In this document: one piece after another, positions 999-17,604 of the stretch
How the letters are laid out: every line of letters starts with the position of its first letter
Numbering within the stretch: position 1 is the stretch's first letter
Made by a program: the position numbers and the translations under genes
Virus record (IMG/VR): IMGVR_UViG_3300001450_008740
Span: 1 to 25,107 of that record
Direction: 5' to 3' (one strand)
DNA: 25,107 nt
DNA from: a virus
Notes under the pieces: generated by a model
What the model was told of the DNA's origin: nothing
Database searches by the model: none
The model's input: only the letters and a program-made list of their open reading frames with translations

Positions 999-1757
999 AT
1001 GATGTCAAAAAACAAACTAGTAGCATATGCAGTGAGCTTGCTAGTCGTCATGAACCAACTCTCAGGCTGTTCTACATTAGAAAAGTCTTCACAAAAACCC
1101 ACAGAAAATCAAACAGAATCACCACCAGAATTTAAACCATTCATCCCTCTTGATGATAATGCGTTTGGTTTTGTAGGATCTCTACGTCGTTCAACAGGTA
1201 AAGTTCTAGGTTCCGCTGTTCTGATAGAAACAAATGTTGCACTTACTGCGGCGCACTGTTTAATTGATACCGATATTTCATACGTAGAATTTGCTGGGAA
1301 AAACTACCCAATCGACTACACCATATGCTACGAAGACGGAACACATATAAACCACGACATTGGGTTAGTATTTCTAACAGAAAATGTTATTGGAGTTAAT
1401 CCAGTTAGCAGAATTGATGACGTTATTAGTAGCATAAAAAAATGGGATTATGTTACAACAATTGGCTACTCTAGGGGATTTAAAAAGGCATCGTCACTCA
1501 GCACATTTCGATACTACGGTGTTCTATACAACGAAGAAAATCAAATCAAGATGCTACCACATAATGGGAGTATCTGGTTTGGTGACTCTGGTGGTGGTTT
1601 ATTTTGGTTTGGTCCCAAAGGATTTCAATTAATAGGAATCCTAATCAGCTTTTCACAGATTGACGGAACAATCATAGAAAATTCATCTACTCGTGTTGAT
1701 TGTTATCAAAATTGGATAGATCACGAAATAGAGAAGAATAAAGAATTAAATTCTTAA
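999..1757 (+). CDS. Trypsin-like serine protease with lipoprotein signal peptide
   Basis: Predicted to be exported, lipid-anchored and proteolytic. Seen: residues 1-24 form a signal peptide (Lys4, Lys6, a hydrophobic stretch, then a lipobox L-S-G-C24), with Ser25 at +2 as in lipoproteins sent to the outer membrane. Residues 25-55 are a Ser/Thr/Pro/Glu-rich linker. The S1 (chymotrypsin-fold) triad is complete: LTAAHC (His86), HDIGLVFL (Asp120) and GDSGGGLFW (Ser197 with oxyanion glycines). The length, 252 aa, is normal for a single-domain S1 protease. The start is ATG 999; ATG 1002 is the alternative. No purine-rich Shine-Dalgarno sequence precedes either, unlike almost every other gene here. 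The gene overlaps the convergent RuvC-like gene by 4 nt. The family call is firm; the substrate and its role in infection are unknown. Confidence 0.88.
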   Translation: MMSKNKLVAYAVSLLVVMNQLSGCSTLEKSSQKPTENQTESPPEFKPFIPLDDNAFGFVGSLRRSTGKVLGSAVLIETNVALTAAHCLIDTDISYVEFAGKNYPIDYTICYEDGTHINHDIGLVFLTENVIGVNPVSRIDDVISSIKKWDYVTTIGYSRGFKKASSLSTFRYYGVLYNEENQIKMLPHNGSIWFGDSGGGLFWFGPKGFQLIGILISFSQIDGTIIENSSTRVDCYQNWIDHEIEKNKELNS

Positions 1758-2320
1758 ATCATAGTATATTTTATATTATCATATAAACACTTACAAACAA
1801 AATACGCATCAACAATATCTGATACGGGGTTAGTTACGCCTGTTTTGTCTGGAGTTATAATTTTAGCTAGATTATGAGTTGTTTCCCGGTGAAAAGCACT
1901 GTGCATGTCAGCTTTATTTGCATTACCTTTCCCACAAGCTCTCTTCTTAACTTCAGACGGAGTTATAACTTCTACTGGAATATTATTCTGAAAGAATTTA
2001 TATTTTAGTATGCCAGTATTTTCTGCAATATGGAATACTCTACCCTTTGCACCATAGGCATATCCCTCTAAACCAACTTGATCACAACCATAGCAAACAT
2101 CGGCTGCCCATGCGGAAATTGTATCATATCGTTCACAGTCGTGATTATATTCTTCAAAAACACTACCATGTATATTTGACAAAAAAGTCTTTGCATATTT
2201 TTTAGTATCTGTAAGATAGTAAAATTTACATTTATTAAAAGAGAAAGTATCGGTAATTTCTCCCCTATAAACACAAATTGCTGGACCACACAATGAATAA
2301 TCGATTCCGGCTATTAACAT
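1754..2320 (-). CDS. RuvC-like Holliday junction resolvase
   Basis: Predicted to cut branched recombination and replication intermediates before packaging. Seen: an RNase H-fold pattern with acidic residues in RuvC order. These are Asp7 in IAGIDYSLCG, Glu85 in GLEGYAYG, and the C-terminal SDIVDAY with Asp168 and Asp171. Between them are the RuvC-type segment IAENTGILKY and PSEVKKRACGKGNANKADM, which resembles the VKxxxxGxGxAxK region of RuvC. The 188 aa fit the family. The start ATG has an AGAAGG Shine-Dalgarno about 6 nt upstream. T4 itself uses the unrelated endonuclease VII (gp49) for this job, so this may be its functional substitute (inference). It overlaps the end of the protease gene tail to tail by 4 nt. 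The fold is likely; substrate specificity is unproven. Confidence 0.75.
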   Translation of the reverse strand: MLIAGIDYSLCGPAICVYRGEITDTFSFNKCKFYYLTDTKKYAKTFLSNIHGSVFEEYNHDCERYDTISAWAADVCYGCDQVGLEGYAYGAKGRVFHIAENTGILKYKFFQNNIPVEVITPSEVKKRACGKGNANKADMHSAFHRETTHNLAKIITPDKTGVTNPVSDIVDAYFVCKCLYDNIKYTMI

Positions 2321-2451: not shown

Positions 2452-2482
2452 AAATAACAAGAGGGGACTAACGTCCCCTCTT
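2449..2482 (-). terminator. Rho-independent terminator of the porin transcript
   Basis: Read on the minus strand, a perfect 10-bp stem (AAGAGGGGAC with GTCCCCTCTT, plus-strand 2459-2482) with a 4-nt loop is followed by a U-rich tract (TTGTTATTTTTA). It sits about 50 nt after the porin stop codon. On the plus strand the hairpin is not followed by a U run, so the polarity is minus. Confidence 0.85.
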
Positions 2483-2533
2483 GCACACGGATAGAGGGTG
2501 ATCCAACCCCCCAGTATAATATAACTTTATATA

Positions 2534-3562
2534 TTAAAAGCTAACAGTCAACATGCTCTTGATGAGATACTGTCCGTCAGTGGTGGAAGTTTCCCATCCA
2601 GTATTGGTAAGATCATACCCAGAATCGACTGCGTTTAGCGCATACCCGAAAGAGTTGGTCCACCTTACATTGGAATTAAAGATAACATTCGCACCAATAG
2701 TAGCGAGATTTAGATCCGAATTGACGCCATCCATGACACCATATTCGTACTGACCAAATAGCTGTACGTCATGGCTAAGAAGATAGCTGGCAGTACCAAC
2801 GACAGAATAATTACTCCAACTGTCGTTGACTCGGTTCGACGCAACATAAGCAGCATCAAACTTAAATTCGCCACACTCTACACCAGCATCAAACGTAAAG
2901 CTATCGTAACTATCGGTAGCAGTCTGTTCGTTTGCAAATGCACCACCAAGAGTGATGTTCTCAAAACCATCATATTCTACGCGTCCACTAAGTCCGTAGT
3001 CATTGTCACCAAAGCTACTGTTGTCAGTGTTAAAACCATCATTGTATGATGCGTAGAAAGAAAAATCATCGAAGCTCTTGCTGACTTCGATACCCTGTGA
3101 CCAACCTTGGCCATATGTGAGGGCTGTGACAGTATAGTCACCAGTGACAAGCGTGGTTGGATCAGAGACGTACCCGCTATAGAAGCTGGTAACGAACTGC
3201 CCCGCCTTCACATCAAAACCACCGATGTTCTTACTGAGGAAAGCATCCTTCAGTACAAACTCGGTGTCACTCCACTGACCACTTACTCCATAGTCAAATC
3301 CATAAACCTCACCCGAAAAGGCAATTCGAGCACGATCAATGTCAAATCCCCGAGTTGTTTCGTTTGATCCACCAGCGTTCCATAGATAACGGAACTGAAT
3401 GAAACCAGAAACATCCACGGTGACGGGAGATTCTTCAGACTTGAGACTCATGTGAGTCATCGAGTCTTCGCGAACACCCATGATAAGCTCATGGACATTT
3501 ACGTTTTCGGCTGCACCAGTCATAAGAGGTGCAGAAAGAAGTACTGTTGCGATATTAATCAT
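2534..3562 (-). CDS. Outer-membrane porin, phosphate-selective porin O/P-like
   Basis: Predicted 342-aa outer-membrane beta-barrel channel. Seen: a hydrophobic N-terminus with an Ala-Ala site near residues 17-18, then DVSGFIQFRYLWN (50-62). Next comes FDIDRARIAFSGEVYGFDYG (73-92), LKDAFLS and VKAGQFVTSF, the order found at the start of OprP/OprO-type porins. Alternating aromatic amphipathic strands follow, and the protein ends in Phe342, the usual C-terminal signal of outer-membrane barrels. The start is well fixed: AAAGGAGAT precedes the ATG and an in-frame TAA lies five codons upstream. The signal peptide is odd because its first 20 residues have no Lys or Arg. The gene is 21 nt downstream of the 64-aa membrane protein and shares its transcript. 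The substrate is unknown; phosphate selectivity cannot be claimed from the sequence. Confidence 0.82.
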   Translation of the reverse strand: MINIATVLLSAPLMTGAAENVNVHELIMGVREDSMTHMSLKSEESPVTVDVSGFIQFRYLWNAGGSNETTRGFDIDRARIAFSGEVYGFDYGVSGQWSDTEFVLKDAFLSKNIGGFDVKAGQFVTSFYSGYVSDPTTLVTGDYTVTALTYGQGWSQGIEVSKSFDDFSFYASYNDGFNTDNSSFGDNDYGLSGRVEYDGFENITLGGAFANEQTATDSYDSFTFDAGVECGEFKFDAAYVASNRVNDSWSNYSVVGTASYLLSHDVQLFGQYEYGVMDGVNSDLNLATIGANVIFNSNVRWTNSFGYALNAVDSGYDLTNTGWETSTTDGQYLIKSMLTVSF

Positions 3563-3583: not shown

Positions 3584-3778
3584 TCAGCCACCCCAAGTAG
3601 TAACTGAGTCCCAGATGGTTGCGATCGCATCTCGGAACCAGAGGACACCATCCCATGCGAATGGGACAAGGGCGAGACTGATGAGGAGGGATCGGGTAAT
3701 TCCAATCTTTCCAAGCCAGCTCTGTACAAAATCTTTACCGCAACCTGCGGCGGGGCAATCTCCAGTAGTTTTACTCAT
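3584..3778 (-). CDS. Small membrane protein with CX4C motif, hypothetical
   Basis: Not recognised. The frame is open from further upstream (ATG 3829), but the start at 3778 is preferred because AAGGAGAAACCT precedes it, giving 64 aa. Seen: Cys8 and Cys13 in DCPAAGCGKDF, an amphipathic stretch to residue 27, one hydrophobic segment at about 28-48 (ITRSLLISLALVPFAWDGVL), then a Trp-rich C-terminus ending TTWGG. It probably spans the membrane once. It lies just upstream of the porin on the same strand, so co-expression is likely. It could be a holin-like or envelope-modifying protein, or a metal-binding small protein; none of these can be shown. Confidence 0.7.
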   Translation of the reverse strand: MSKTTGDCPAAGCGKDFVQSWLGKIGITRSLLISLALVPFAWDGVLWFRDAIATIWDSVTTWGG

Positions 3779-3853
3779 AGGTTTCTCCTTGTATAAGAGT
3801 ATAATGTGTCCATGCTCCGACGAACACACTGGATTAATAAAAGTTCTATTGTA

Positions 3854-5818
3854 TCATGAATTAGTTGTTAAGTCAACTACTTCACATGAATTTCCTGAAC
3901 AAGCAAACGTCTGCGTTCCCGCTGTATTGTCTTCTTGTTCGTACTCTCCCAATCTACTCCAATCCACATCTTGTGGCATGGAAGCTAAAAGTTCTTTGTA
4001 CTCTTCATCAGTGCAATCCTGATAAGGAGCTTGTCTATATGTATGATCCGAGAATGGTAAGAATGATACACCGGAGACATCATCAAAATGTTCCCACACC
4101 CATGCCCCAACTTCCATCCACTCAGACTCTTTGACTGAAACGGTTATTGATGGTTTGTGTTCACACCAAAACTTCTGATACTTTAACCAAAGTTCCAGTT
4201 GTTCTAGCGCAGTAAGATCCATACGGAACACTGCATTTTTTGGTGCCTTCATTGGGAATGAAAATACCATTGTATGTTCTGGCTTCATCACATCAGGTTC
4301 ACATGGAAATCCAATTTCATCCATAAATGTACATAATGGATCTTTGATATCTGCACGAACAGTACGAATATAATTTGGGTTATGTCGAGCATGAATCCCA
4401 GAAGCAGCGTCAACTAACTGAGAGACAGTTCCACTAGGTTTTACGCATGTAATAGCAACAGATTCATTTATTCCAATATTCTTTGCTGTCTTCTTGTTCT
4501 CTACTATTGCGGTAGTCTTCAGATGCGTTAGAAGCTCTTCTAGTCCCTTAGACTTACCGTTAGTGAGCTTACAATCCATGATACCTGTCATTGATACACC
4601 AAGAAGTCGTTCATCTTCACAATTACGTTCCCACTCACTTGACAGATACTTAAAGTTAGTTAGAGTTGACTGCCAAGTTCCCAGAATCGTAGCAAGACGC
4701 ACTTTGCGTTCAAGGGATTCTTTCGTATCGTCTCCACGCACAACAATCTCGGTGAGGTTACAGAATTCTTTATCACGGAGAATGATCTCACTACATGGGT
4801 TGGTACCAAATTCATGATCAGTTTCTCGCAATCGATAACCATCACCCATAGATTCTCTATGATTATTTGCATGTTCAATTTGTTTCTTGGCCGCATCTCG
4901 ATTGAAGATACCACGCTCACCGGACTTACTCTTGTAGAGTGAAACCCATTCCTCCATAAACGTACCAATCTCAGGCTTCTCTCTATATGCTACTGAATTA
5001 TTCGATAATGCTCTTTGTGGGTCGGAAACCCACCACTGTCCGTGCTTCGCATCACGCATCCGTTCATCGGTAAGCGACGAGAGTGAGATAAGGGCACTTC
5101 TTCGTACTCCCCCAACCACGACAATTTCAGCAATCTTACAGATGACATCATGACACTCGATTGATGTGAGTTTTCTTCCAGCAGCTTTCTGATAGGTATC
5201 CACCGTGAATCGGAATAAATCGTCCAATGGCTCCGGACCCGAAGCTCTACCACCGAAAGTTTTGAGTTTTGCTCCGGCAGATCTAACTTTAGATAAGTCC
5301 CATTTCGGAATCTGACCTCCAATAAGAAGGGAGTTGAGTTCCTTATATGCTTTAGCCCAACCCATCTTACTATCCTGTACAACAATGGTCGTATCACTAT
5401 CTTCAAATTCTTCTGCAATTGTAGGAAGTTTCTTAAGGAAATCACGTTCGACACTAAACCCAACACCAGTACCACACATAAGTACATATAAAATTTCATC
5501 AAAGGCACGAACTCTACCTGAACTAGCAAAGGAACAATTATATCCTGCAATGTTGTCTCGCTTAAGAGCTTCTCCGGCCGTCATGAGTGCTCTCATCGAA
5601 GGCATGACTTCTAGGTTAAGAACAGCAGTTTCGAGTTCTTCTCGTTCCTTCTTTGATACATTGTAATTATGAAACTCCTTAAGGTGTTCCTCAAAGAAGT
5701 TAAAATAACGACTAACAGTTTCAGACCAAGTCTCTCTCCTGCCTATTTCCGGTAACCATCTAGAGTAACGGGATAGGTGAATAAACGACTGATATAAACT
5801 TGGTAACTCTGTACTCAT
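3854..5818 (-). CDS. nrdJ: Adenosylcobalamin-dependent (class II) ribonucleoside-triphosphate reductase, monomeric
   Basis: Reduces ribonucleotides to deoxyribonucleotides using a thiyl radical generated from adenosylcobalamin, independent of oxygen and without a small subunit. Seen: redox Cys95 in AGYNCSFA; NPCSEI with the expected thiyl-radical Cys342 and catalytic Glu344; the second redox Cys353 in EFCNLTE; GGVRRSALISLS (236-247); CVKPSGTVSQLVDAASGIHA (458-477); and a C-terminal CX4C (Cys640, Cys645) that would shuttle electrons from thioredoxin. The pattern matches Lactobacillus-type monomeric RTPR, though at 654 aa it is shorter than the 739 aa of that enzyme. GGAGA lies about 8 nt before the ATG. 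No thioredoxin or B12 gene is in the window, so both must come from the host or elsewhere in the phage genome. Confidence 0.93.
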   Translation of the reverse strand: MSTELPSLYQSFIHLSRYSRWLPEIGRRETWSETVSRYFNFFEEHLKEFHNYNVSKKEREELETAVLNLEVMPSMRALMTAGEALKRDNIAGYNCSFASSGRVRAFDEILYVLMCGTGVGFSVERDFLKKLPTIAEEFEDSDTTIVVQDSKMGWAKAYKELNSLLIGGQIPKWDLSKVRSAGAKLKTFGGRASGPEPLDDLFRFTVDTYQKAAGRKLTSIECHDVICKIAEIVVVGGVRRSALISLSSLTDERMRDAKHGQWWVSDPQRALSNNSVAYREKPEIGTFMEEWVSLYKSKSGERGIFNRDAAKKQIEHANNHRESMGDGYRLRETDHEFGTNPCSEIILRDKEFCNLTEIVVRGDDTKESLERKVRLATILGTWQSTLTNFKYLSSEWERNCEDERLLGVSMTGIMDCKLTNGKSKGLEELLTHLKTTAIVENKKTAKNIGINESVAITCVKPSGTVSQLVDAASGIHARHNPNYIRTVRADIKDPLCTFMDEIGFPCEPDVMKPEHTMVFSFPMKAPKNAVFRMDLTALEQLELWLKYQKFWCEHKPSITVSVKESEWMEVGAWVWEHFDDVSGVSFLPFSDHTYRQAPYQDCTDEEYKELLASMPQDVDWSRLGEYEQEDNTAGTQTFACSGNSCEVVDLTTNS

Positions 5819-5890: not shown

Positions 5891-8800
5891 CTAATATCCA
5901 TACCCACCAGATGATGGTGGTGACATTGGTGGTGGTGACTGACGTGGCGGTGATGACTGACGTGGTGGTGGTGACTGACGTGGTGGTGTGGGCGTCGATG
6001 GAGTCACCGGATCAGGTTCTGGTGATTTGGTTTTTGTAGCTACACTTGACAGTTTAATGCCCGAACTAAGTGATATAACCTCTCTATCAGCGGATGTAGC
6101 GTTATCTCCAATAATACCAACGCGAGCTTGAGTAACATCACGATCAATTGGTCCACGAGAAGGATACCACACCAAACTATCCGAATCAGCAACCCTATAT
6201 GACATTGCGCGAACAGTACCGTCATCCAGAACAATGTAATATATGTCTGCGTGTGCGGCCGCATATTCAATTTTTCTTCCTGATTCATCGTTCAAATTTG
6301 CATCTAATATGGTTAAATTTGCAGAATTCATAACATATGTGCTATCACGTCTATATTCTCTACCCAAAGCATCTGGATATGGAATACACTCTAAATTATC
6401 TTGATTGATAAAGTTTCTTTCATTAATTCTATTTGGAACCCTAAAATCCTTTAGGAAATTGGGATCATTTCGCAATTCATCTGGAATATTATTTGATAAT
6501 TGACCTGAGTTTGCCCAAAATGAAAAGTTCTTTTTAATGTCGATCAGAGGATTACCCTCTGCATCAAACAAAGATGGATCTAATATTCGCTCTGAAGCGT
6601 TTCCACCCAATGCTTGATCGAATACATCCCAATCAATTTCTTCATTGTCTGGATCATCTGTACCAAAAAAGTTAGCTTCGAGAGCACCATACTGCTGTCC
6701 ACCCTCAGATTCACCTTGTTGAGAAAATCCCCTGTAGTATGGATGAAGCGCACCCGATTCATGTGCTGGTATTCCGGGTAGGTATGGTGGTTGCATTGGT
6801 GTTGGATTATCGGCTGGTCCGGGTTCTGCAAAAGGTGTAATACTCGGGGGATTGCAAAATCCGGGATAACAGACACTCCCCTGAAATAATTGCCCTCGAC
6901 TCGCATAAATAGATCCGATCATAGGAATACCGTCAGGGTAATTTGAATCTGTTTTAGATGGGTATATTTTACTGTCCCAAGTATTGAGGATTGGGTTAAA
7001 TAAACCATTGGCTCTATTGTTTGGGTTTAATTTAAAGTTGTTTAAATTGCCTCGGTTAAAAAACAGATTCCAAAATCGAATGTCATCATATGTCCTCCAT
7101 GGTTCATAATCAGGAACAACATTTACACCTCGCGGCTTAAAATATACCGGGTGTGGTACTGTAAAGAAATCTATATCTACACTATCACCAAACTCAAAAC
7201 TTCCTGGTCCAGCAGATAAAAATGGTTCAGCAAATTCCACACCTTTCCATTGTTTTGCAGTTATGTAGGCAATCTTATCATTATTCGAGTGAATTACAAT
7301 GCCAGATCTAGTACCCCCAATGTTTCTGGGTGGAATATAATGTCTATTCCCACCTTCTGTCCTAACAAATAATTTTTCATAATTAACTGGATCAAAAGAT
7401 GTTGTTTTATCGGGATTGTTTGTTGCATTTTCGCGGTATCCCCATAGAGAATCATCTAGTGGATCAATATCAGGAGAGTATACATGTGTGGTCAATCTCG
7501 GAGACAACTTTTTCGCAAGCGAATTTATTAGATTAGCATTATCGAGTTGCATGACACCAAGGTGCATAATACCAGGCCTATAATTTGGAACGACCTCATC
7601 ATCACTAATAACCAAAGGACTTAAACCACCATTTGGAATACCATAAACAACAGTAGAAAGATGTTCGAATGTATCACTCATTTGATAAACAGGGCATCTT
7701 TCGCCATTTGAGTCTTTTGGTATTTCCCTCAATGATGCTGTTAGAAACCTAAGAATCGAATTATCTTCGTGAATCGGAGAGTTTGTTTCCGGATCAATCA
7801 TTATACTTTCAGGTCTTGTGTAATCTCTATACTTAGCAGCAACCCGGTGTGGATCTCCATTCAGAATAAGTCGAATGAATTCATCGTTAACCCGCTTATC
7901 ATAAATTGGTAGATCTTCTGCGTTTGGATCAGTTGGATCTGATGGTAGTGTATATCCAATTTCAATGAAAGTTCTTTGCATATCAACAGTTATCACTCCA
8001 TCAAACCCAAGCCCTGGCGATGATGTCAAAAAACCACCGCCGTCTTGTGGAATATGACCAGCTTTCATGTACAGCGGATCTAGATCAGAATTGGGCACAC
8101 CATTCGAATCATATGAACTGTACTTGGTCCTCTCTATAAATCTAGAATAAGATTGCCCCGTGTCTGGAATGGAAACTGTTCGCAAATTTGGAGAAATTGT
8201 GCTCTTAATTTCACGAGCATAAAGCTTACCGTTATCATCAATTGCGAATACAGTAACTCCCTCACCAGTAAGAGTACTACCTACTGCTTGAACTGATATA
8301 AACACAACATCTTCGGTATCAACTAAATGTCCGCTATCATCCATCCAAAAATACTTTTCTGAACTCATATATGGGAACGAATTTAAATCCAACGGAACAC
8401 CATTAGAATCCAAATGTTCTGACCAGTCTACTTTTCTATATTTCTCTGGGTACCATATGAAGAAATTCCTAACGAATGATTTTTCAGCACCGTATGATGT
8501 AGTTGAAGCGTTCGGTGTGGTGTTCGATAGCGGAGTACAATTAGATAGAACATGAATCTTACCCTCTTCATCTAAAAGAATAGCAAGTTCATTACCGGCC
8601 ATGGCCATTGATTTTATTTTTAAATCTTCATCGTAATATTCAACTGCTGATGCTAAATGAGTATAGTTAGGATTACCCGACTCATAAACGTCTTTAAATT
8701 TTTCATTTAAAAATAATCTAAACAAGTGGCCAATATTCGCAATGGGTTCTGCCAGATATTTGGTTATTCTATCAGTATAATTTAAACCTAAAGATGCACT

Positions 8801-9664
8801 TTCCTCATCTCCAGTCCAGTCAACAGGCTCTGCTACAAATTTTTCTGATGCTGGATTGAAAATAGAATGATATTCGATACCCTCTGTCTGTACGCCTTTT
8901 TTGTTAAATAGATATTTGTCGAATAAAGATAATAAACTAAAAATTGGTGGTTGCAATGCAAATGAGTATGCACTACTTACCTGTTTTATTTTACCCTCTT
9001 GATCTACATACAAACCATTATCAAAACCAGTCGAGAATGTTTGCTCTTTTGCGTCTTGAATTTTTCCAGTGTCATCATTTCGGTAAGATCCATACTTATA
9101 AAAAGTAGGTCGTTTTGGTATTCTTTCTGTTAAAGTGACTAGATCAGGAAGTTCACTACTAGCCAGTTCAGGTAGAGCTAGATTATATGTTCGTCTCACC
9201 ACAGGGCTACTTTGATCGTAGATCAGATTAACTCCGGGTATCGTCTGTATAGATGATAGATCACTAATCGTGGCGACATTTGACTCGTATGAGCCATTAG
9301 GCACGAAATCAGCATTACCATCAGAATTACCATCAAAACCAAACATATCAAAGTTAGTCTCGTCAGCTCCCAATTGTTTCTTGTTGGTTGTCGCGGCACC
9401 AGCTAAACCTATTAATTGAAATAAACCATGTGAATTTTCCAATGGGGTTGGCCAACCAGTCCCACTTGCAATACCACCATCAAATCTATCTGAGAACAAA
9501 CTAAGACTATATTCACTCTGACTAGAATCGACTGAAGTCGGATTATCATTCAGCAGAACTAATCCACCATAAATATCACCCTCAACATAGCGTTTTAAGA
9601 TAAGCTGTGGGTTCTCGATCTCTGCATCACCACCAAGTCCACCATGTCCAAATGTATGTACCAT
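5891..9664 (-). CDS. Very large virion-type protein with RCC1-like segments and proline-rich tail
   Basis: Unrecognised 1257-aa protein, probably a virion component judged by size, neighbour and the late-promoter match upstream. Seen: a Gly-rich start (MVHTFGHGGLGGDAEI). At least three segments with the cadence of RCC1/beta-propeller blades follow: AMAGNELAILLDEEGKIHVL (about 354-373), VTVFAIDDNGKLYAREI (about 470-486) and AAAHADIYYIVLDDGTVRAM (about 1135-1154). Weaker DxxGK segments lie near 220 and 440. Much Asn/Asp/Pro-rich sequence separates these. The last 44 residues are low complexity: PPRQSP/PPRQSS repeated three times, then MSPPSSGGYGY. There is no signal peptide. AAAGGGG precedes the ATG, and the gene is 11 nt downstream of the 156-aa gene. 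It could be a tail appendage or adhesin; the beta-propeller reading is an inference. Confidence 0.65.
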   Translation of the reverse strand: MVHTFGHGGLGGDAEIENPQLILKRYVEGDIYGGLVLLNDNPTSVDSSQSEYSLSLFSDRFDGGIASGTGWPTPLENSHGLFQLIGLAGAATTNKKQLGADETNFDMFGFDGNSDGNADFVPNGSYESNVATISDLSSIQTIPGVNLIYDQSSPVVRRTYNLALPELASSELPDLVTLTERIPKRPTFYKYGSYRNDDTGKIQDAKEQTFSTGFDNGLYVDQEGKIKQVSSAYSFALQPPIFSLLSLFDKYLFNKKGVQTEGIEYHSIFNPASEKFVAEPVDWTGDEESASLGLNYTDRITKYLAEPIANIGHLFRLFLNEKFKDVYESGNPNYTHLASAVEYYDEDLKIKSMAMAGNELAILLDEEGKIHVLSNCTPLSNTTPNASTTSYGAEKSFVRNFFIWYPEKYRKVDWSEHLDSNGVPLDLNSFPYMSSEKYFWMDDSGHLVDTEDVVFISVQAVGSTLTGEGVTVFAIDDNGKLYAREIKSTISPNLRTVSIPDTGQSYSRFIERTKYSSYDSNGVPNSDLDPLYMKAGHIPQDGGGFLTSSPGLGFDGVITVDMQRTFIEIGYTLPSDPTDPNAEDLPIYDKRVNDEFIRLILNGDPHRVAAKYRDYTRPESIMIDPETNSPIHEDNSILRFLTASLREIPKDSNGERCPVYQMSDTFEHLSTVVYGIPNGGLSPLVISDDEVVPNYRPGIMHLGVMQLDNANLINSLAKKLSPRLTTHVYSPDIDPLDDSLWGYRENATNNPDKTTSFDPVNYEKLFVRTEGGNRHYIPPRNIGGTRSGIVIHSNNDKIAYITAKQWKGVEFAEPFLSAGPGSFEFGDSVDIDFFTVPHPVYFKPRGVNVVPDYEPWRTYDDIRFWNLFFNRGNLNNFKLNPNNRANGLFNPILNTWDSKIYPSKTDSNYPDGIPMIGSIYASRGQLFQGSVCYPGFCNPPSITPFAEPGPADNPTPMQPPYLPGIPAHESGALHPYYRGFSQQGESEGGQQYGALEANFFGTDDPDNEEIDWDVFDQALGGNASERILDPSLFDAEGNPLIDIKKNFSFWANSGQLSNNIPDELRNDPNFLKDFRVPNRINERNFINQDNLECIPYPDALGREYRRDSTYVMNSANLTILDANLNDESGRKIEYAAAHADIYYIVLDDGTVRAMSYRVADSDSLVWYPSRGPIDRDVTQARVGIIGDNATSADREVISLSSGIKLSSVATKTKSPEPDPVTPSTPTPPRQSPPPRQSSPPRQSPPPMSPPSSGGYGY
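5926..5990 (-). repeat. 18-bp tandem repeat coding PPRQS(P/S)
   Basis: TGACTGACGTGG recurs on the plus strand at 5936, 5954 and 5972, exactly 18 bp apart, with similar GGTGGTG flanks. Read on the minus strand it encodes three hexapeptides PPRQSP, PPRQSS and PPRQSP in the C-terminal tail of the 1257-aa protein. Such repeats can change copy number by slippage. Confidence 0.8.
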
Positions 9665-9675
9665 TCAATTCCCCT

Positions 9676-10146
9676 TTACTTAGTTACTTCTCTGTTTACA
9701 ACAAATCTACCCTTGAGAACTTTTATGGTTTCATTTGAAGGGTTGATAAATTCTAGATCATAGAAGTGTCTACCGAAAGGCATCTCAGATGTGGTCAGGG
9801 CATCCATTGCCACAAAAACACCACCTGTCGAATTACCATGTGTTGATCCTGTAGATGAGGCATTAAAGTAAATACCCCCAGTTCTACCAGCACTAATTCC
9901 ACCAGTAGATGTAGATTGGAAAAATCCGATTGTCCCACCACCGATAATCGAAGCACCAGCACCAGTTGGTCCTGTTCCTAAAAGATACACAAGCATATCA
10001 TCCGAACCAGCGAATTTACGAACTTGCATTTCAGCTTTCTTATAATTATTCAAATCTATGAGATTATCATCATTATCAGTAAACTGAAAATACAATCCAA
10101 ATTTTTCACCTTGATCTATTTCTATGTCGTAGTTTTTTTGTGCCAT
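9676..10146 (-). CDS. Virion-associated protein with beta-sandwich-like N-terminus (tail/baseplate type)
   Basis: A 156-aa protein. Seen: an opening YDIEIDQGEKFGLYFQFTDN followed by DLNNYKKAEMQVRKF. This pattern (I-x-Q-G-x-x-F, D-L-x-x-Y-x-A-x-M-Q-V-R) recurs in small tail or baseplate proteins of many phages, such as the N-terminal domain of BppU-type proteins. A glycine/serine-rich middle (about 57-115) looks like inserted loops, then FGRHFYDLEFI and VLKGRFVVNREVTK give closing strands. The ATG has AAAGGAAC upstream and sits about 20 nt from a TATAAATA late-promoter match. It precedes the 1257-aa gene and is probably co-transcribed. The exact virion position is unknown. Confidence 0.55.
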   Translation of the reverse strand: MAQKNYDIEIDQGEKFGLYFQFTDNDDNLIDLNNYKKAEMQVRKFAGSDDMLVYLLGTGPTGAGASIIGGGTIGFFQSTSTGGISAGRTGGIYFNASSTGSTHGNSTGGVFVAMDALTTSEMPFGRHFYDLEFINPSNETIKVLKGRFVVNREVTK

Positions 10147-10159
10147 AATAGTTCCTTTA

Positions 10160-10897
10160 CTATGTATTTATAGTAAGGGCTTTCCATGAAAATGGGAAGA
10201 GAGGTTGTATAATATCACCAATTACTCTCGCATATTCACGGATCTCCCACTGTGCGTGATCATCAGACCTTTGACTATAGAATCTAGCATATGCTGCAAG
10301 TGATCCTGTCCAGTACCATTCCGTGTACATTGCTTGTGGTAAAATGAAACGTGCTTGCTCTGGAGCAACACCAGAATCAAGTAGTTTATGATATGCATCC
10401 AAAGATGCATTAAGTGAATCAGAGAACGCTCGTATTGTCGCTGAGGGTAAAGCTACGAAATCGTCACTACCCTGCTTTGCACCGTTCGTTGGTTGACCTC
10501 TCCAGTGAGGTAAATAAAACTCAGGCTCATGCGAAACATATCTTCTGCTAATTTCATTCTCAACAAATCCCTGCTTGTGCTTAAAGAACTGAGTTCTAAT
10601 TGACACGGGAGCTTTTATTCTCAACGTAATCTGTGGATGTGCAAAGGGTGTCCAGTGCTTATTTTTTGCTAAGTATCGTATGAGTTTTTTATCAGATTCA
10701 GACAAAGTTTTGAACTCATTGCGAAGTTTATCTGCCTGCCAATTTGATCCCTGAATCTTTTTCATAGCCTCTTCATCATATGCCCACTCACTTTCTTTAT
10801 TGAAAGAAACACGAGCAGCATTTACCACAGTGAGATCATTACCCATGTGATCAACCAATTCAACATGTCCTGCATTTAAAATCTTAGTCACGTTCAT
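10160..10897 (-). CDS. thyX: FAD-dependent thymidylate synthase ThyX
   Basis: Makes dTMP from dUMP with methylene-tetrahydrofolate and reduced flavin. Seen (numbered from the preferred start): VNAARVSF (25-32), the conserved N-terminal ThyX segment; LIRYLAKNKHWTPFAHPQIT (72-91); and the signature region RTQFFKHKQGFVENEISRRY (101-120) followed by WRGQPTNGAKQGS. The C-terminal RFILPQAMYTEWYWTGSL also fits ThyX. The usual RHRX7S core is changed here (Lys106-His107-Lys108). The start: an upstream ATG at 10918 is possible, but GGAG lies 5 nt before ATG 10897, giving 245 aa and a 14-nt overlap with the 60-aa gene. With RNR and dUTPase it completes a dTTP supply set. T4 uses the unrelated ThyA-type enzyme. 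Confidence 0.93.
   Translation of the reverse strand: MNVTKILNAGHVELVDHMGNDLTVVNAARVSFNKESEWAYDEEAMKKIQGSNWQADKLRNEFKTLSESDKKLIRYLAKNKHWTPFAHPQITLRIKAPVSIRTQFFKHKQGFVENEISRRYVSHEPEFYLPHWRGQPTNGAKQGSDDFVALPSATIRAFSDSLNASLDAYHKLLDSGVAPEQARFILPQAMYTEWYWTGSLAAYARFYSQRSDDHAQWEIREYARVIGDIIQPLFPFSWKALTINT
10165..10172 (-). promoter_or_regulatory. T4-type late promoter (TATAAATA)
   Basis: The minus strand reads CTATAAATACATAG inside the last codons and stop of thyX, a perfect match to the T4 late-promoter octamer TATAAATA. Its expected start point would leave a leader of about a dozen nucleotides carrying AAAGGAAC and then the ATG of the 156-aa virion-type gene. The position, exactly at the junction from replication genes to structural genes, supports function. 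Confidence 0.6.
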
Positions 10898-11066
10898 CAT
10901 CTCCATAAAAAATATCAAAATCTTCTAATTCAGTATAACTTTTAGCATAATCAACCGCTCTTCTCCATAAATCAGAATCGTTCTCTTTTACGTAATCTGA
11001 AAAATGATTTGCAAATTGAATTGTTGCCTCCAGAAAAACATCATCGGGAATATCTTCTTCCATCAT
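10884..11066 (-). CDS. Small acidic protein (60 aa), hypothetical
   Basis: Not recognised. The preferred start is ATG 11066, because GGAGAAAGAT precedes it and its ATGA overlaps the primase stop codon; ATG 11078 would add four residues. The product is acidic, mostly helical in appearance, with DVFLEATIQFANHFSDYVKE and a C-terminus rich in Asp/Glu (ELEDFDIFYGDDERD). There is no signal peptide or membrane segment. It lies between primase and thyX with overlaps at both ends, so it is translated within the replication operon. A DNA mimic or small replication accessory is conceivable but not shown. Confidence 0.7.
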   Translation of the reverse strand: MMEEDIPDDVFLEATIQFANHFSDYVKENDSDLWRRAVDYAKSYTELEDFDIFYGDDERD

Positions 11067-12115
11067 ATCTTTCTCCATTTCATTAATTTTAGTTTAGCTT
11101 CTAGCCCCGTGTAAATATTCTGATCAATTATACTTTTAATCTCCCTATGTGATCTCGTGTATATCATATCATTAATATCTTTTTGCTTTACATTTTCTGG
11201 CCAGATACAAACGGAACATTTTTTCTCTATGAGACGTTCCATGTAGTTTATAATTTGTTTGTTTCTTGGTTCATTATCGAGAGCGTATATAACGTCACTA
11301 CAATCAAACCGAGGATGTATTTTTTCAATCGCACCAGCACCAACCATCGCTATGGTATTTGGTATAAACAAACTATCCAGTGGTCCTTCAACAACATAAA
11401 CTCGTTTCTTAGGGTTAGCTCTCCACATACCATACCATAATCGATCAATACTTTTATCAGCTTTCACTGTTATATAACGGGCAGTATGTCGAGCATTTTG
11501 TTCTGATTTTAAATTTAGAAGGCGACCCTGTGCAGCAACAAGATCACCTGTCTTATTAAAGAAAGGTATAATCAAACGCTCTTCCGCACCAAAGGCCATT
11601 GCTTCCGGATCCAATTTAGTCTGGAAAGATCCAAAGTCATCAGTATAATACAAAATATCATAATACTTTTCTGGTATCTTTCTCAACTTGACAAATTGTA
11701 AAGCTGGATGATCCTTACTTAGATCTTTAATTTTAGATAGGTTTTGCAATAGTTTTGGTATTGGTTTAAATTTTGGCTTTGAGTGTATTCCTAACATGTC
11801 TTCCTTTTCTGGTTCGATGAAATTAGATCTGTTGTTCTCACCAGACTTCCATCTTTCCATGGAATAATCTTTCATCAACAACGGCGAGACCATCTCTAAA
11901 AATCTATATAGGGAGTGTCCAGCACCACAATTGTGACATTTATAGAAAAAATCGTTACCTTTTTGAAAAAAGTAACCTCGTGCTTTTGTTTTATTTTTTT
12001 TCGAGTCCCCGCAAATGGGACATCGACAGTTAGCTAAATCATTCTTCTTCCAACTAAATTTATCTAGTTGAGGTGATACCAAATTGATAAATTTTTTATC
12101 AATGTAAGTAGTCAT
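11063..12115 (-). CDS. DNA primase (T4 gp61-like, zinc finger plus TOPRIM)
   Basis: Synthesises RNA primers for the lagging strand with the adjacent helicase. Seen (numbered from ATG 12115): an N-terminal zinc-binding site CPICG (Cys32, Cys35) and CHNCG (Cys60, Cys63), then RLIIPFFNKTGDLVAAQGRL (180-199). A TOPRIM core follows, with VYVVEGPLDSLF (Glu243, Asp247), a glycine turn AMVGAG, and VIYALDNEPRN (Asp280), where metal-binding acidic residues are expected. The 350 aa agree with T4 gp61 (342 aa). The start overlaps the helicase stop as TAATG, with GGAG 7 nt upstream; an in-frame ATG 12 nt earlier is less well placed. Gene order helicase-primase is as expected for a T4-type primosome. Confidence 0.88.
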   Translation of the reverse strand: MTTYIDKKFINLVSPQLDKFSWKKNDLANCRCPICGDSKKNKTKARGYFFQKGNDFFYKCHNCGAGHSLYRFLEMVSPLLMKDYSMERWKSGENNRSNFIEPEKEDMLGIHSKPKFKPIPKLLQNLSKIKDLSKDHPALQFVKLRKIPEKYYDILYYTDDFGSFQTKLDPEAMAFGAEERLIIPFFNKTGDLVAAQGRLLNLKSEQNARHTARYITVKADKSIDRLWYGMWRANPKKRVYVVEGPLDSLFIPNTIAMVGAGAIEKIHPRFDCSDVIYALDNEPRNKQIINYMERLIEKKCSVCIWPENVKQKDINDMIYTRSHREIKSIIDQNIYTGLEAKLKLMKWRKI

Positions 12116-13521
12116 TAAATGCTCCAACTTTCAAATGAATTTTTTGATTCAAACTTAGAATCAAAGTTCTTACCATTAAATCCTGCACCAGAATCCTGAC
12201 TTACACTTTGATTTGATTGTGTCAGATCACCAGATCCATGATCTACATCATACAGTTTCATTTTTCCTCTGTTAATACCAAGTAAGAATTTCTTATTACT
12301 AGCCACATCATTGTAGCGATTCTTCAATTGTTTAACCATGATTTGATTTAGCTCTTCCAACTCTTCGGTAGATATCAAAGCAATCATGAAATCTGCGGTA
12401 GCCGGAAGTCCAAATGATTCTGATGTATCCTCAAGACCAACATCACTATTATTAAATCCATTACGATTCACTTGTGTTGCAGAAAAAACAGGTACAGATC
12501 TTTCAACTGCCATACCACGAAGTTCTTCTGCGATCGCTTTAATATAAGTATAAGAATTCACGTTACTACCATTTTTCAAACGTGCTGAAGCACATATGTT
12601 CAAGTAATCAATAAAAATGATATCTGGTTTAAATTGCTTCTTCATCCACAACTCATCCAGTAAAGCACGAAAATGATTGACGTTTGCAGTCGCAGTAGGG
12701 TACTCCTTGACAATTAATTTACCCTTAATCTTAGATTTTAGATTATTTAATTTCTTATTATATATTGTTTTGGGTAGATCCTGAACATTATCAATAGTCA
12801 TATCTAGTAAATTGGCATCTATTCTCTCTGCAATTCTTTCTTCTGCCATTTCACATGTAATGTACAAAACATTATTGTTTTGCGATAAACAATTAGCTGC
12901 ATGGTGACACAAAAATAATGACTTACCAACACCCGTACCAGCCATGATTATGTTTAGCGTTTTCTGTGGTGTCCCACCGCCAGTTATCGTATTAAAATAC
13001 TCAAGATCAAAAGGAACTTTTTGCTCCACTTTATGATAAAAATCATATCTCTCATCAGAATCTTCCAGATAATCATGTCCAACGTGAGTATCAAAAGAAA
13101 CTGCCAACGCATCAGATAGAATTTCTGGTATTGCGTTTGAATTTTGTGTTTTAGATTCACCATCAATGATGTGAATTGATTCCATGATGGCATTATATAC
13201 TGCTTTATCCTTACAAAAGCTTTCTGTCTGTTCAGTCAACCAAGAAAAATCAACTTCATCATCGGACAAACTGTCTAACATAGAAGCAATTTGTTTAAAA
13301 TCATCTTCGGTTACAGTTTTAAGTTTATCAATTTCAATCAGAACAACTTCTTGTGTGGGGGCTGCATTGTAGGTAAGTATAAAATTTTGAACTATAGTAA
13401 AGGCTGTCTTTTCGTTTCTATCATGGAAATACTCCGCCTTTAAAAACGGAGTTACTTTCCTAGAATATTCTTCATTGTATAAAAGGTTCTGTAAAATGAT
13501 TTGTTCAAGATTTTTTGTCAT
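12115..13521 (-). CDS. Replicative DNA helicase, DnaB/T4 gp41 family
   Basis: Hexameric 5'-to-3' helicase of the replication fork. Seen (numbered from ATG 13521): an N-terminal all-helical region to about 165 with [19 protein letters not shown]; Walker A AGTGVGKS (194-201); TCEMAEERIAERIDANLL (222-239), the DnaB-type H1a region; Walker B DIIFIDYLN (300-308); and FSATQVNR, the H3-like sensor. The 468 aa match T4 gp41 (475 aa). A GTG at 13524 directly precedes the ATG; AGGAGG lies just before both, so the ATG is chosen, with 3 nt between. The C-terminus is Ser/Asn-rich and probably disordered. It overlaps the upstream 109-aa gene and the downstream primase. Confidence 0.92.
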   Translation of the reverse strand: MTKNLEQIILQNLLYNEEYSRKVTPFLKAEYFHDRNEKTAFTIVQNFILTYNAAPTQEVVLIEIDKLKTVTEDDFKQIASMLDSLSDDEVDFSWLTEQTESFCKDKAVYNAIMESIHIIDGESKTQNSNAIPEILSDALAVSFDTHVGHDYLEDSDERYDFYHKVEQKVPFDLEYFNTITGGGTPQKTLNIIMAGTGVGKSLFLCHHAANCLSQNNNVLYITCEMAEERIAERIDANLLDMTIDNVQDLPKTIYNKKLNNLKSKIKGKLIVKEYPTATANVNHFRALLDELWMKKQFKPDIIFIDYLNICASARLKNGSNVNSYTYIKAIAEELRGMAVERSVPVFSATQVNRNGFNNSDVGLEDTSESFGLPATADFMIALISTEELEELNQIMVKQLKNRYNDVASNKKFLLGINRGKMKLYDVDHGSGDLTQSNQSVSQDSGAGFNGKNFDSKFESKNSFESWSI

Positions 13522-13834
13522 CACCCTCCTTTAAGAGTTCCCCATCTTCACCGGCAATAGATAACTGTTCATCTAGTACTTGAAAAAGAATGTTATTTAA
13601 TACTTTATTGAGTTCTTCACTTTCATTAATGAAACCCGAAGCGTCACTTTCATTGAAATCTTGTTCATTTATGATATCATAATCATAATTAAAATTCAAC
13701 TCTTCATCTTTTTCTTCAAAGTATACACCATCAAATCTAAATTGTAGACCTGTATATTCACCCTCAGTAATTTCAATCGGGACATTACCGTCAACATACT
13801 CATCCATATATCGGTAACTAACATTATCATTCAC
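13505..13834 (-). CDS. Acidic hypothetical protein between uvsX and helicase
   Basis: Not recognised by family. The frame is open further upstream inside uvsX, but the likely start is GTG 13834, which overlaps the uvsX stop (GTGAATGA) and follows a purine-rich AGGAAGAG; this gives 109 aa. Seen: [20 protein letters not shown] and [15 protein letters not shown], a compact predicted beta-rich start, followed by a very acidic Asn/Asp/Glu stretch and a helical end ([18 protein letters not shown]). No metal-binding or catalytic motif is visible. Being translationally coupled between recombinase and helicase suggests a role in recombination-dependent replication, for example a mediator such as UvsY, but there is no visible UvsY similarity. 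Confidence 0.65.
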
Positions 13835-14891
13835 TTTTCTCTTCCTCCACCCCTCCAGTATCATGTGACGAATCACTTGTTCCATATGTAAATTCTTTCT
13901 GTGCGACTCTATCCAATTCTTGCATAAAATCTTCACAAAAGTATTTTTCCGGGTTCTTGTAGATTTGCTTTTCATATACTTTAGTACCATCTTTCAATTG
14001 GATTCTGTTTGAAACTTTACTTACCAATTCATACTTGAGGGCAAGATCAATTAGTCCATAGTAAGGATTTAGACCTTCGTCATAATTCAACAAAACGTCC
14101 ACCATAGAATTTTCTTTGGTGAATCGACTCTTATATAGCTTACAGTGGATGATGTTTCCAATCACATCTGTTCCATCCTTAACTTTCTTCTTAGATAGGT
14201 ACACAATAGTTGATGCTGCATATTTGAGTCCAGAACCACCACCCATTTCTTTCTGAGGAAACATAGAACCAATCACATCATATGTGTGGTTTGTCAGAAT
14301 GAGTGGAATACCTGCTTTTCCTAACTTAAGAGTCAGAACTCGGAAAGTTGATTTGACCATCTGTGCTCGTGTCATATCACGAGTACCCTTACCATCGGCA
14401 GTGTCAGTAATTTCTTTATCGGTGCTCAACATACCAAGTGAGTCCAAGCAGATTAGCATAGGTTTTCTTTCTGACTTGGGTAGTTCAAGATATTTGTCAA
14501 CAATTGTAATAGCTTGATGACGAAACTCTTCGATTGTTGCAACGGGGAACACAGCGACACGACTAGGATCAACTCCACGATCAGTGAACATATCTGATGT
14601 TACGGCTTGCTCAGTATCAAAATACAAAACTACCCCGTCACGATTGTCAGTCAGAAACTTATGTACGATACCGAGTGTAAAATAAGTCTTTCCCGTTGCA
14701 GATTCTCCTGCAATTGCGATAATCTTATTATTAGGAATTCCACCCCAAAGAGAACCAGAAAGCAAAGCGTTAAAAGCATAAGATCCAGTGTCAACGAATC
14801 CATCTACGTCCGCACCATCCAATCCATTTTGGACAATATTTGCATATTTGTTTCCACTCTCTTTCACAAAGTCATTTAAAAAATCGTTCAT
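13827..14891 (-). CDS. uvsX: UvsX/RecA-type recombinase
   Basis: Forms filaments on single-stranded DNA and drives strand invasion for recombination-dependent replication and repair. Seen (numbered from ATG 14891): [20 protein letters not shown] (35-54), typical of UvsX; Walker A GESATGKT (62-69); LYFDTEQAV (89-97) with the catalytic-type Glu; Walker [13 protein letters not shown] (144-155); [11 protein letters not shown] (a RecA L2/Q-loop-like region); and [12 protein letters not shown]. The length is 354 aa (T4 UvsX 391). AGGAG is 8 nt before ATG 14891; an ATG at 14897 is too close to it but cannot be excluded. The acidic C-terminus (GGVEEEKSE) is common for RecA proteins. Confidence 0.92.
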
Positions 14892-14902
14892 TAACATATC
14901 TC

Positions 14903-15094
14903 CTACTTCTGTTGTTTAATAATGGATAGAATTCTACCAATGTTATCGCGATCACTTGCTAAACTACCAATTTCATCTAGGGAAGTTTCCTCATCTGCAT
15001 ATGATTCTCTTACACTATTACTTATCTCAGTATGAATTGTAGATAAGTAATTTTCCAAAAATATTAAGTCTTTATATTCAATAGTAATGTTCAT
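14903..15094 (-). CDS. Small hypothetical protein (63 aa) between DNA polymerase and uvsX
   Basis: Not recognised. The ATG overlaps the polymerase stop as ATGA and has GAGGGAC upstream. The product is charged and helical ([20 protein letters not shown], then [20 protein letters not shown] and [10 protein letters not shown]), with no signal peptide or membrane segment. It ends 11 nt before the uvsX start. Its coupling to the polymerase suggests a replication accessory or regulatory role, without further evidence. Confidence 0.7.
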
Positions 15095-17604
15095 GTGAAA
15101 AGTCCCTCTAGTGTTGCTTCTTCTTTAGACTTCCACCCAATTGCAGTAAGAATTGTTTGCAATGGATCCAAAAAACTTGTGGTGAATTGCTTATCATAAT
15201 CAATAAATCTATGTAAGTCAAGTTCTTTAGGAATTTTAGTGGGGAAAGAAATTACCTTATCTCCCCTACCACCACCGATGGGATTTGGTTCCTTTAGGTA
15301 AATAAATTTAATTTTATCTCCCTCTTGTATTTTTTCATATTTATGACAAAGATTAGCTTTCTTTACAAAGAAATTATAAATCAAAGATCCCTTGACTGCA
15401 ATTGGAGTTCCCTTGGAATATATGTTTGATGGAGAAGAATATTTTTCTAGATTTGAAACACTACGAGGAAATGCAATTTCTTCTGGATCAAACTTAAAGA
15501 AATTTGTTTCAAATTCAGATACAAATTTCTGAATAACAGTTTCATCTGTAGTAAGAATTAGGCGAATAACTTCTTTGAGTTTTTCGCGAACGACTGCGGG
15601 AGTTGAACTTCTAGTAGTTTCAATTCCCATGATCTTAAGTTTAGGTTCATCGTATCGAATCCCTTCTGAATCCCAAACATTTAACGCATATCGTTTCTTG
15701 GCGGTCCAAACACCTCTCTCAGAAATAACTTCTCTACCCATTTGCATTTTGTTTTCATAAGCATTCATCATCTTAGCGAGTTCATCGTAATTTTTGTCAA
15801 TAAGAGGTTGGATAATCTTATCTGAACTTTCATCTAAGAAATTAACAATCTTATTTACATCAGTACATTCAGGAAGAAATCGATCAACCAATTTGCTCAG
15901 TCTAACATAAATCGAGTCTGTGTCTGATGCAACAACATAGTCGTAGTTTTCGGTTCCAATTGTATTGTTTAGGAAAACATTCAATTTATCAGCAACCCAA
16001 CGAATACTCAATTGACCCGAAGTGGTGATTGCTTCTGCAACATCAGTTGAATAATACCTAAAATATTGATTACCAATTGCACCATAAGCAGAGTTAAGTT
16101 GAATCTTACGAACCATCTGAAAGTTATTGTACTTGGTAATTTTATTTTCTAGATTCGGTTCACCCGCTTGTTGACGTTTCTGACAATCGATCATTTTCTT
16201 CTTATATGTCTTTCTTTCAGCATACATCTTAGACATCAATTCTGGAAGGAACCCACGAATCTCGCGAGTGTAACATGTACCATTTGCTGCCACTGAATAA
16301 TTTTTATCAGTATGCTTCTTCAACGCTCTTTTAAAATGATCAGATTGTTCACCAAGAGCAGCGTTTGGTGTGATAATAAAATCTTGTGGTTGATTAATTT
16401 TTGTCTCTGGACTAATATTGTATTGCATAATAAGGTGTGGGTATAGACTGTTCAAGTCAAAAGACACAACCCAATCATGCATTCCTGTGATTGGATCCTT
16501 TACATATGCGCCAACATATTGCTCATCTTTTTTCCCGCCCTTCTTGGGAGGAATTACAATATTTTCTTTTCTGAGGTGATGGTAGATAATTTGATCCCAT
16601 GTTCTAACTTGAGAGAAAACATCCTCATAGTTCACCTTGGCAGAATAAGCTAATGCAAGGGCAAGCTCAAGTAATTTCATCTTATCTTCTAACATCTCAA
16701 TCAACTCAACATCACGAACATTATACTCCATAAACTTTTGGAAGTCATTGCGATAAAAATCTCTAATTGTTTCGTATTCACCATAACCGAGTTTGCGTTC
16801 ACCAAGTTCAACAAACGTAATGTGATCTAGTTTATATGATTCTTGATTTTTATATGTAAAAGTTCGATACAAGTCCAAGTAATCTAGAATAGAAACACCA
16901 AGAATCTGGAAAGTCAAATGCTTCTTACTGGATCGTTCAATTTCTTTCTCTCTGATTTTTTTCCATGGAGAAAGTTGTGCTGTCTCAACTGGAGTGAGTA
17001 GTTTGTTCATTCTTTGAACAAGATATGGAATATCAAAAAACTTAATGTTCCAACCAGTTACAATGTCTGGGTGTTCCATTTTCCAAATGTCTAGAAAATC
17101 GGCGAGAAGATCCTCTTCATGTTCATAGTTTCTACAATCAACATTGTCAATGTGAAACTCACCAAGTCCAAGCACATACTTCTTTCCATTAACAGAAAGA
17201 GTGATACCAATAACTTCCTCTTGTGGATCGTCAACTTGAGGAAACCCATGCTCACATTGCGTTTCGATATCGATATGAGCGATGACAATTTTTTCCATGT
17301 CATAGTCAACTTCACCCGAAAATTCATCACCAATATACTGATAAACGTAATCAGTATTACCATATATGTTGAAGTTAGGAATACCTTTGTATTTGTTAAC
17401 AAACTCCCGACATTCTGAAATGTTTCCGGGGTTGATCGACTCTACAAATGTACCTTCCAATGTCTTAAATTCAGTTTCTTTATTTGATGGAACAAATAAA
17501 GTTGGTTGATATTTAACAACTCGCTTTACTGCTATTCCATTTTCAATCGCTCGATAGAGAATACCATCCCCAACGAGTGACACATTAGTATAGAAATTTG
17601 TCAT
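15091..17604 (-). CDS. Family B DNA polymerase (T4 gp43-like)
   Basis: Replicative polymerase with 3'-5' proofreading. Seen: exonuclease motifs IAHIDIETQ (Asp112, Glu114), TGWNIKFFDIPYL (Asp191) and YNVRDVELI (Asp298); polymerase motif A SFDLNSLYPHLIMQYNISPE (Asp383), motif B VRKIQLNSAYGAIGNQYF (498-515) and motif C ASDTDSIYV (Asp561, Asp563). All catalytic residues are present and the first exonuclease pair has the same numbering as T4 gp43. The 837 aa are slightly shorter than T4 (898 aa). The C-terminus (SFLDPLQTILTAIGWKSKEE, then ATLEGLFT) resembles the clamp-binding tail. The ATG lies 2 nt after the stop of the Nmad1-like gene with no clear Shine-Dalgarno, so coupled or regulated translation is likely. 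Confidence 0.96.
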   Translation of the reverse strand: MTNFYTNVSLVGDGILYRAIENGIAVKRVVKYQPTLFVPSNKETEFKTLEGTFVESINPGNISECREFVNKYKGIPNFNIYGNTDYVYQYIGDEFSGEVDYDMEKIVIAHIDIETQCEHGFPQVDDPQEEVIGITLSVNGKKYVLGLGEFHIDNVDCRNYEHEEDLLADFLDIWKMEHPDIVTGWNIKFFDIPYLVQRMNKLLTPVETAQLSPWKKIREKEIERSSKKHLTFQILGVSILDYLDLYRTFTYKNQESYKLDHITFVELGERKLGYGEYETIRDFYRNDFQKFMEYNVRDVELIEMLEDKMKLLELALALAYSAKVNYEDVFSQVRTWDQIIYHHLRKENIVIPPKKGGKKDEQYVGAYVKDPITGMHDWVVSFDLNSLYPHLIMQYNISPETKINQPQDFIITPNAALGEQSDHFKRALKKHTDKNYSVAANGTCYTREIRGFLPELMSKMYAERKTYKKKMIDCQKRQQAGEPNLENKITKYNNFQMVRKIQLNSAYGAIGNQYFRYYSTDVAEAITTSGQLSIRWVADKLNVFLNNTIGTENYDYVVASDTDSIYVRLSKLVDRFLPECTDVNKIVNFLDESSDKIIQPLIDKNYDELAKMMNAYENKMQMGREVISERGVWTAKKRYALNVWDSEGIRYDEPKLKIMGIETTRSSTPAVVREKLKEVIRLILTTDETVIQKFVSEFETNFFKFDPEEIAFPRSVSNLEKYSSPSNIYSKGTPIAVKGSLIYNFFVKKANLCHKYEKIQEGDKIKFIYLKEPNPIGGGRGDKVISFPTKIPKELDLHRFIDYDKQFTTSFLDPLQTILTAIGWKSKEEATLEGLFT

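Follow-up and report, generated by a model that had tools for sequence, protein, structure and literature searches.

A Porin_O_P-superfamily porin with planctomycete-type relatives, encoded in a small operon of uncultured marine T4-type phages

Introduction

The lambdoid phage PA-2, a temperate phage of Escherichia coli, encodes an OmpC-like porin, Lc, described as diluting or replacing a host porin used as phage receptor. Predicted structures labelled porin also exist in viral metagenomes. In marine viral contigs the viral porin OmpL adjoins glnK-amtB within a cluster of genes that has a separate promoter and terminator; its assignment is to Bacteroidetes, and it has been linked with the transport of ammonium (PMC8115048). 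Phages of planctomycetes are few, Phage-ZRK32 being one example (PMC10945688), and a literature search found no paper on planctomycete-infecting T4-like phages or on the porin family described below.

The stretch of DNA analysed here (the window, 25,107 nucleotides) belongs to a 28-kb virus record with a T4-type DNA polymerase. Like OmpL, its porin is phage-borne and marine, belongs to a gene cluster under a promoter and terminator of its own, and probably stems from the host phylum; unlike OmpL, it is of planctomycete type, and its companions in T4-type phages are the gene for a 64-aa protein and that for a class II ribonucleotide reductase. With Lc it shares only that it is a predicted phage-encoded outer-membrane porin, whereas Lc is OmpC-like and comes from a temperate E. 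coli phage, and no sequence relation between the two was found. Phage porins as such are already known; what is new is the family, the module, the 64-aa partner and the pointer to a host.

Results

The porin reading frame is intact, with an ATG start preceded by the Shine-Dalgarno sequence AAAGGAG and a C-terminus reading ...LTVSF, of which the last residue, F342, is invariant in the family. A first viral scan returned 11 relatives (43-100% identity), 10 of them full-length, with terminal Phe throughout. Comparison of the window porin with relative L004 gave dN/dS values of 0.12/1.29, and that of the L010 and L014 porins 0.17/1.03 (overall ratio about 0.1-0.2); since dN is far below dS, the window porin is under purifying selection. 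The protein is strongly net negative (15 K+R vs 44 D+E). Searched as a single protein against Pfam, PHROGs, NCBIfam, PDB and phages it had no match, and neither did the L010 porin against phages and plasmids.

A first AF2 model, based on seven viral sequences (16 strands, pLDDT 68), was superseded by a deeper one from 39 sequences, which again predicts 16 strands with a mean pLDDT of 85.1 and a pTM of 0.80 and is uncertain only at residues 1-39. The modelled strands are antiparallel and joined by short periplasmic turns, and a long loop L3 (residues 125-153), which includes a short helix, lies between strands 5 and 6. The top Foldseek matches in PDB were porins only, OprP and OprO among them (OmpT, OmpU, Omp32, OprP and OmpF at E 2e-14 to about 1e-11, TMq about 0.6-0.7). 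The Porin_O_P profile (PF07396) matched 18 of 39 family members. Its cut-off (20.9 bits) was exceeded by the relatives L014 (25.7), L134 (36.6), L144 (34.9) and L147 (33.8), and the window protein itself gave no match; the profile search proposed in the initial annotation succeeded for close phage relatives only. When a family profile of phage and planctomycete sequences was compared with PDB, OprP (2o4v) was the sole significant match (E 9e-8).

These results support, at the level of a predicted structure, the outer-membrane porin fold that the initial annotation had proposed, and its view of a full-length porin with barrel strands and terminal Phe agrees with the intact frame, the model and the Foldseek matches. 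Its description of maintained cargo with its own ribosome binding site and terminator likewise held, given AAAGGAG, the 12-pair terminator stem and the low dN, as did the assignment to a T4-type phage genome, from the DNA polymerase and from gp23 in a longer relative. A barrel is predicted and no PHROG structural match was found, which argues against a virion protein.

The constriction loop sets the window protein apart from OprP. Bacterial and many phage porins share the L3 motif GQFKxPFxREE...DRS, and a well-supported phage subclade including the window porin has GQFVTSFYxGYxxDPxxL...YS. The window L3, GQFVTSFYSGYVSDPTTLVTGDYTVTALTYGQG, contains zero Lys/Arg, and the position aligned to OprP Lys121 is non-basic. 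Low L3 Lys/Arg content is not unique to phages, being found also in two planctomycete paralogues (L038). As to an arginine ladder lining the pore, a parity estimate, made without coordinates, places 9 K+R and 13 D+E among the predicted lumen-facing strand residues. Compared with Pseudomonas OprP/OprO, the window porin shares the 16-strand fold and the superfamily, but is shorter (342 aa), has short loops and lacks both a Lys121 equivalent and a basic L3. Judged by its residues it is an OprP-superfamily porin that does not appear to be phosphate-selective, and such selectivity is unlikely for its whole clade. The OprP/OprO type named in the initial annotation thus stands as superfamily kinship, while the phosphate or anion selectivity attached to it is not supported.

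Together the short external loops comprise 93 residues, and they show no diversification. When four pairs of sequences from the window's clade were compared, amino-acid change in L3 did not exceed that of the strands; no loop of any length was more conserved there than L4, and among the longer loops conservation was highest in L3 and L4. Such conservation fits a working channel better than a receptor decoy that diversifies.

The porin gene forms an operon with a gene for a 64-aa protein, in the order consensus sigma70 promoter, 64-aa gene, porin, terminator (Table 1). The promoter overlaps the end of the reductase gene, and 21 bases separate the 64-aa gene from the porin gene downstream. The small protein has an N-terminal CPxxGC motif and, judged from its sequence, one likely membrane helix; it had no match in Pfam, PHROG, NCBIfam or PADLOC. 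An origin as a host gene was considered and rejected, as 201 genomes of the Phycisphaerales order gave chance-level matches only and no credible homologue.

Table 1. Features of the porin operon and its neighbours in the window.
Feature	Position	Strand	Remarks
Trypsin-like lipoprotein	999..1757	+	lipobox LSGC; directly after porin in some relatives
RuvC-like resolvase gene	1754..2320	-	usual downstream neighbour, past terminator
Intrinsic terminator	2457..2484	-	12-pair stem and T tail, z -4.8; closes operon
Porin gene	2534..3562	-	342 aa; signal-peptide-like N-terminus, short helix, predicted 16-strand barrel, C-terminal Phe
64-aa phage-specific small protein	3584..3778	-	constant partner of porin
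Sigma70-type promoter	3848..3876	-	TTGACT-17-TACAAT, TG before -10
Class II (B12-dependent) ribonucleotide reductase	3854..5818	-	conserved gene directly before operon

A search for the 64-aa family found 156 viral relatives, of which 80 were kept, and 76 loci were checked. The 64-aa gene has a porin adjacent in 54 of these (48 after it, 6 before) and the class II reductase beside it in 68; at 11 other loci the slot behind the 64-aa gene holds a 256-aa barrel-like protein, and about ten have the 64-aa gene without any barrel. Every porin locus with complete flanks has the 64-aa gene adjacent, its reading frame apparently shifted in L008. In the window's clade it precedes the porin, whereas in clade B (L010, L014-L019) it follows, and the module is always beside the reductase wherever that end is present. 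Of the two genes it is the small one that stays constant, and the barrel is exchanged; the pairing had been anticipated in the initial annotation, which overlooked that the 64-aa gene is its constant part. At 33 of 41 loci the 64-aa gene is preceded by a promoter that agrees with the consensus at 10-12 of 12 positions, compared with 5% of shuffles, a count that includes many related loci and does not represent independent events. The 256-aa protein has a signal peptide, ends in Phe and is barrel-like (L151 5194-5964, L182 2819-3580; also in L195, L199, L156, L160, L169, L170, L172 and L183), and its family profile aligns to that of the porin family (E 2e-7).

The window reductase is nearest (about 62%) to those of Sinorhizobium, roseobacter and Streptomyces phages. 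Just upstream of its gene, 5891-9664 encodes a 1257-aa protein with a Pro/Gln-rich C-terminal tail and no Pfam match, whose counterpart in the relative G001 has 1306 aa. The trypsin-like product resembles two PADLOC models, LmuA and RT-protease. A gene of this trypsin-like kind lies directly behind the porin in L145, and lipoprotein-like frames occur in L148, L149 and L186. A protein with collagen triple-helix repeats (PF01391; 20808-21989), perhaps a fibre, has a counterpart of similar size in G001.

G001 (142 kb, from L004) carries T4-type genes including gp23. No record of the phage collection exceeds 53.6% identity to its gp23; a single-cell marine virus and cyanophages come closest. This gp23 was matched in 5 of 22 records tested (51-76% by segment), including 4 of the 6 longest, the remainder being mostly short fragments; at least the long records therefore form one T4-type group. 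Dozens of uncultured marine contigs carry the module, which was not found in isolates, and searches of PHROGs and of the phage collection gave no match for the porin family or for the 64-aa family. On G001, the stretch 8832-17514 (L026) holds four tRNA genes that serve A/T-rich codons (Ile-TAT, Lys-TTT, Arg-TCT, Leu-TAA), a set consistent with a host richer in G+C.

Cellular relatives of the porin were found among planctomycetes, a kinship that the OprP-type reading of the initial annotation had missed while placing the superfamily correctly. A profile built from phage sequences only matched porins in planctomycete genomes with whole-barrel homology (E 7.6e-37 and 4.1e-34). At E<=1e-12, matches were obtained in 13 of 392 genomes of a phylum sample, 40 of 397 of a class sample and 71 of 201 of an order sample that includes genomes titled Phycisphaerales. 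By sequence, the nearest cellular relatives among those sampled are Phycisphaerales porins, and the bacterial relatives in four tested genomes are Porin_O_P members. An all-phyla genome scan gave 16 confirmed loci, 15 titled Planctomycetota or Phycisphaer- and one, 'uncultured bacterium', sister to a planctomycete-titled locus in the tree; its seeds were set by one planctomycete-type row written by hand, so that it is not an unbiased census, and the homology was afterwards re-tested with the phage-only profile in planctomycete genomes. Phage-only seeds found no relative in an all-phyla scan of genome contigs.

In an 82-row tree the phage porins form one clade (100/100), from which L146 and L147 branch off separately. 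The tree contains no porins of other phyla that could serve as an outgroup, and the direction of transfer therefore rests on the N-terminus. An N-terminal coiled coil is present in L146, L147, L150, L153, L171 and L187 and absent in the window protein, and early-branching phage porins keep 'WLETRRSEEVRSLVQDVLADADTR', comparable to bacterial 'WLTEQRAEEIRGLVQDVLADADTR'. The window N-terminus, ...VREDSMTHMSL against bacterial ...DVLADADTRASL, is a stump of this planctomycete-type coiled coil, not the OprP-like segment that had been read there. The bacterial-type coiled coil and a DVLADADTR segment are thus kept near the bacterial side of the tree, and in the window's clade the coiled coil was lost along with the L3 Lys/Arg. 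Phage and Phycisphaerales porins are alike in whole-barrel homology, L3 position, C-terminal strand and, for the early-branching phage members, the coiled coil and DVLADADTR; they differ in that the phage clade is separate and lacks an insert of ~15 residues after the coiled coil, and in that the window's clade has neither coiled coil nor L3 charges. Taken together, the pattern suggests that an ancestor of the phage group acquired the porin once, long ago, from a planctomycete-type (Phycisphaerales) porin.

Planctomycetes are also the probable hosts. No CRISPR or prophage link of the phage group to a planctomycete was found; the DNA/CRISPR comparison gave one match, in the reductase region (67%), to MAG contig G1046:C95, the rest being short and chance-like. 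That contig (38.9 kb; L231/L226) belongs to a planctomycete genome of the same order, has phage-like small frames and is perhaps another phage of the same host group. Large phage proteins contain a dockerin-like stretch (L001 12674-14545, minus strand, and L199 2822-4423; GDFNLDGKVNVGDLNYILANWG; DANADGVVGFLDLTTILGNWG), which was dropped as host evidence after 0 matches in 360 kb of planctomycete genome G375.

Discussion

The reading we prefer, with a probability of roughly 0.6, is that T4-type phages carry a Porin_O_P-superfamily porin, acquired in a single ancient event from a planctomycete-type source, as an early replacement pore. A housekeeping-type sigma70 promoter would drive the porin together with the 64-aa membrane protein, which suggests that transcription is early and performed by host RNA polymerase. 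The porin would then be exported and would take its place in the outer membrane of the host as a channel of 16 strands. The window's lineage has lost the coiled-coil stalk and the charged L3 residues, which most likely leaves a less selective, unanchored replacement pore. Such a replacement or additional pore of low charge selectivity may alter small-solute entry while the phage is making nucleotides.

The main rival is superinfection exclusion, in which the phage porin would mask receptors by diluting or replacing a host porin used for phage entry. The strong sigma70 promoter, suggestive of early expression, suits this explanation, as do the differing barrels behind the same small gene and the loss of L3 charge in the window's clade, which would be understandable if selective transport mattered little. 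We nevertheless consider it rather unlikely, because the external loops are short and not diversifying, with L3 and L4 the most conserved of the longer ones, and because nothing points to a porin as the receptor on the host.

An OprP-like auxiliary gene boosting phosphate or anion uptake for DNA synthesis seems less probable again. Kinship to OprP, the position beside ribonucleotide reductase and the Lys/Arg kept in L3 of many phage relatives would fit, but the window protein combines an L3 devoid of basic residues and a non-basic Lys121 position with a strongly negative net charge. It is very improbable that the product belongs to the virion or the lysis machinery and only looks like a porin: it is phage-encoded and its gene lies about 2 kb from that of the large uncharacterised 1257-aa protein, yet it has a signal-peptide-like start, a predicted 16-strand porin fold, bacterial porin homologues and its own sigma70-type promoter, and no PHROG structural match.

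Extending the replacement-pore reading, we tentatively picture an uncultured, widespread T4-type lineage on planktonic planctomycetes in which a constant small membrane protein might serve exchangeable barrels, the porin or the 256-aa protein, that are made early from a host-type sigma70 promoter and, being unanchored and less selective, take the place of the host's anchored, selective porins; this wider scheme is possible but doubtful. Phage porins were formerly scattered cases, and here a whole family occupies one fixed place in a marine T4-type lineage, in forms that range from nearly bacterial to stripped-down. The family points to a host that can be tested, the planctomycetes, whose described phages are few, and suggests a way, likewise open to testing, in which a lytic phage could remodel the outer membrane of its host. 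The 64-aa partner, constant despite exchange of the barrel, is a new handle on such envelope editing, and the operon as a whole hints at both the host of this phage group and the manner in which it may alter the cell envelope.
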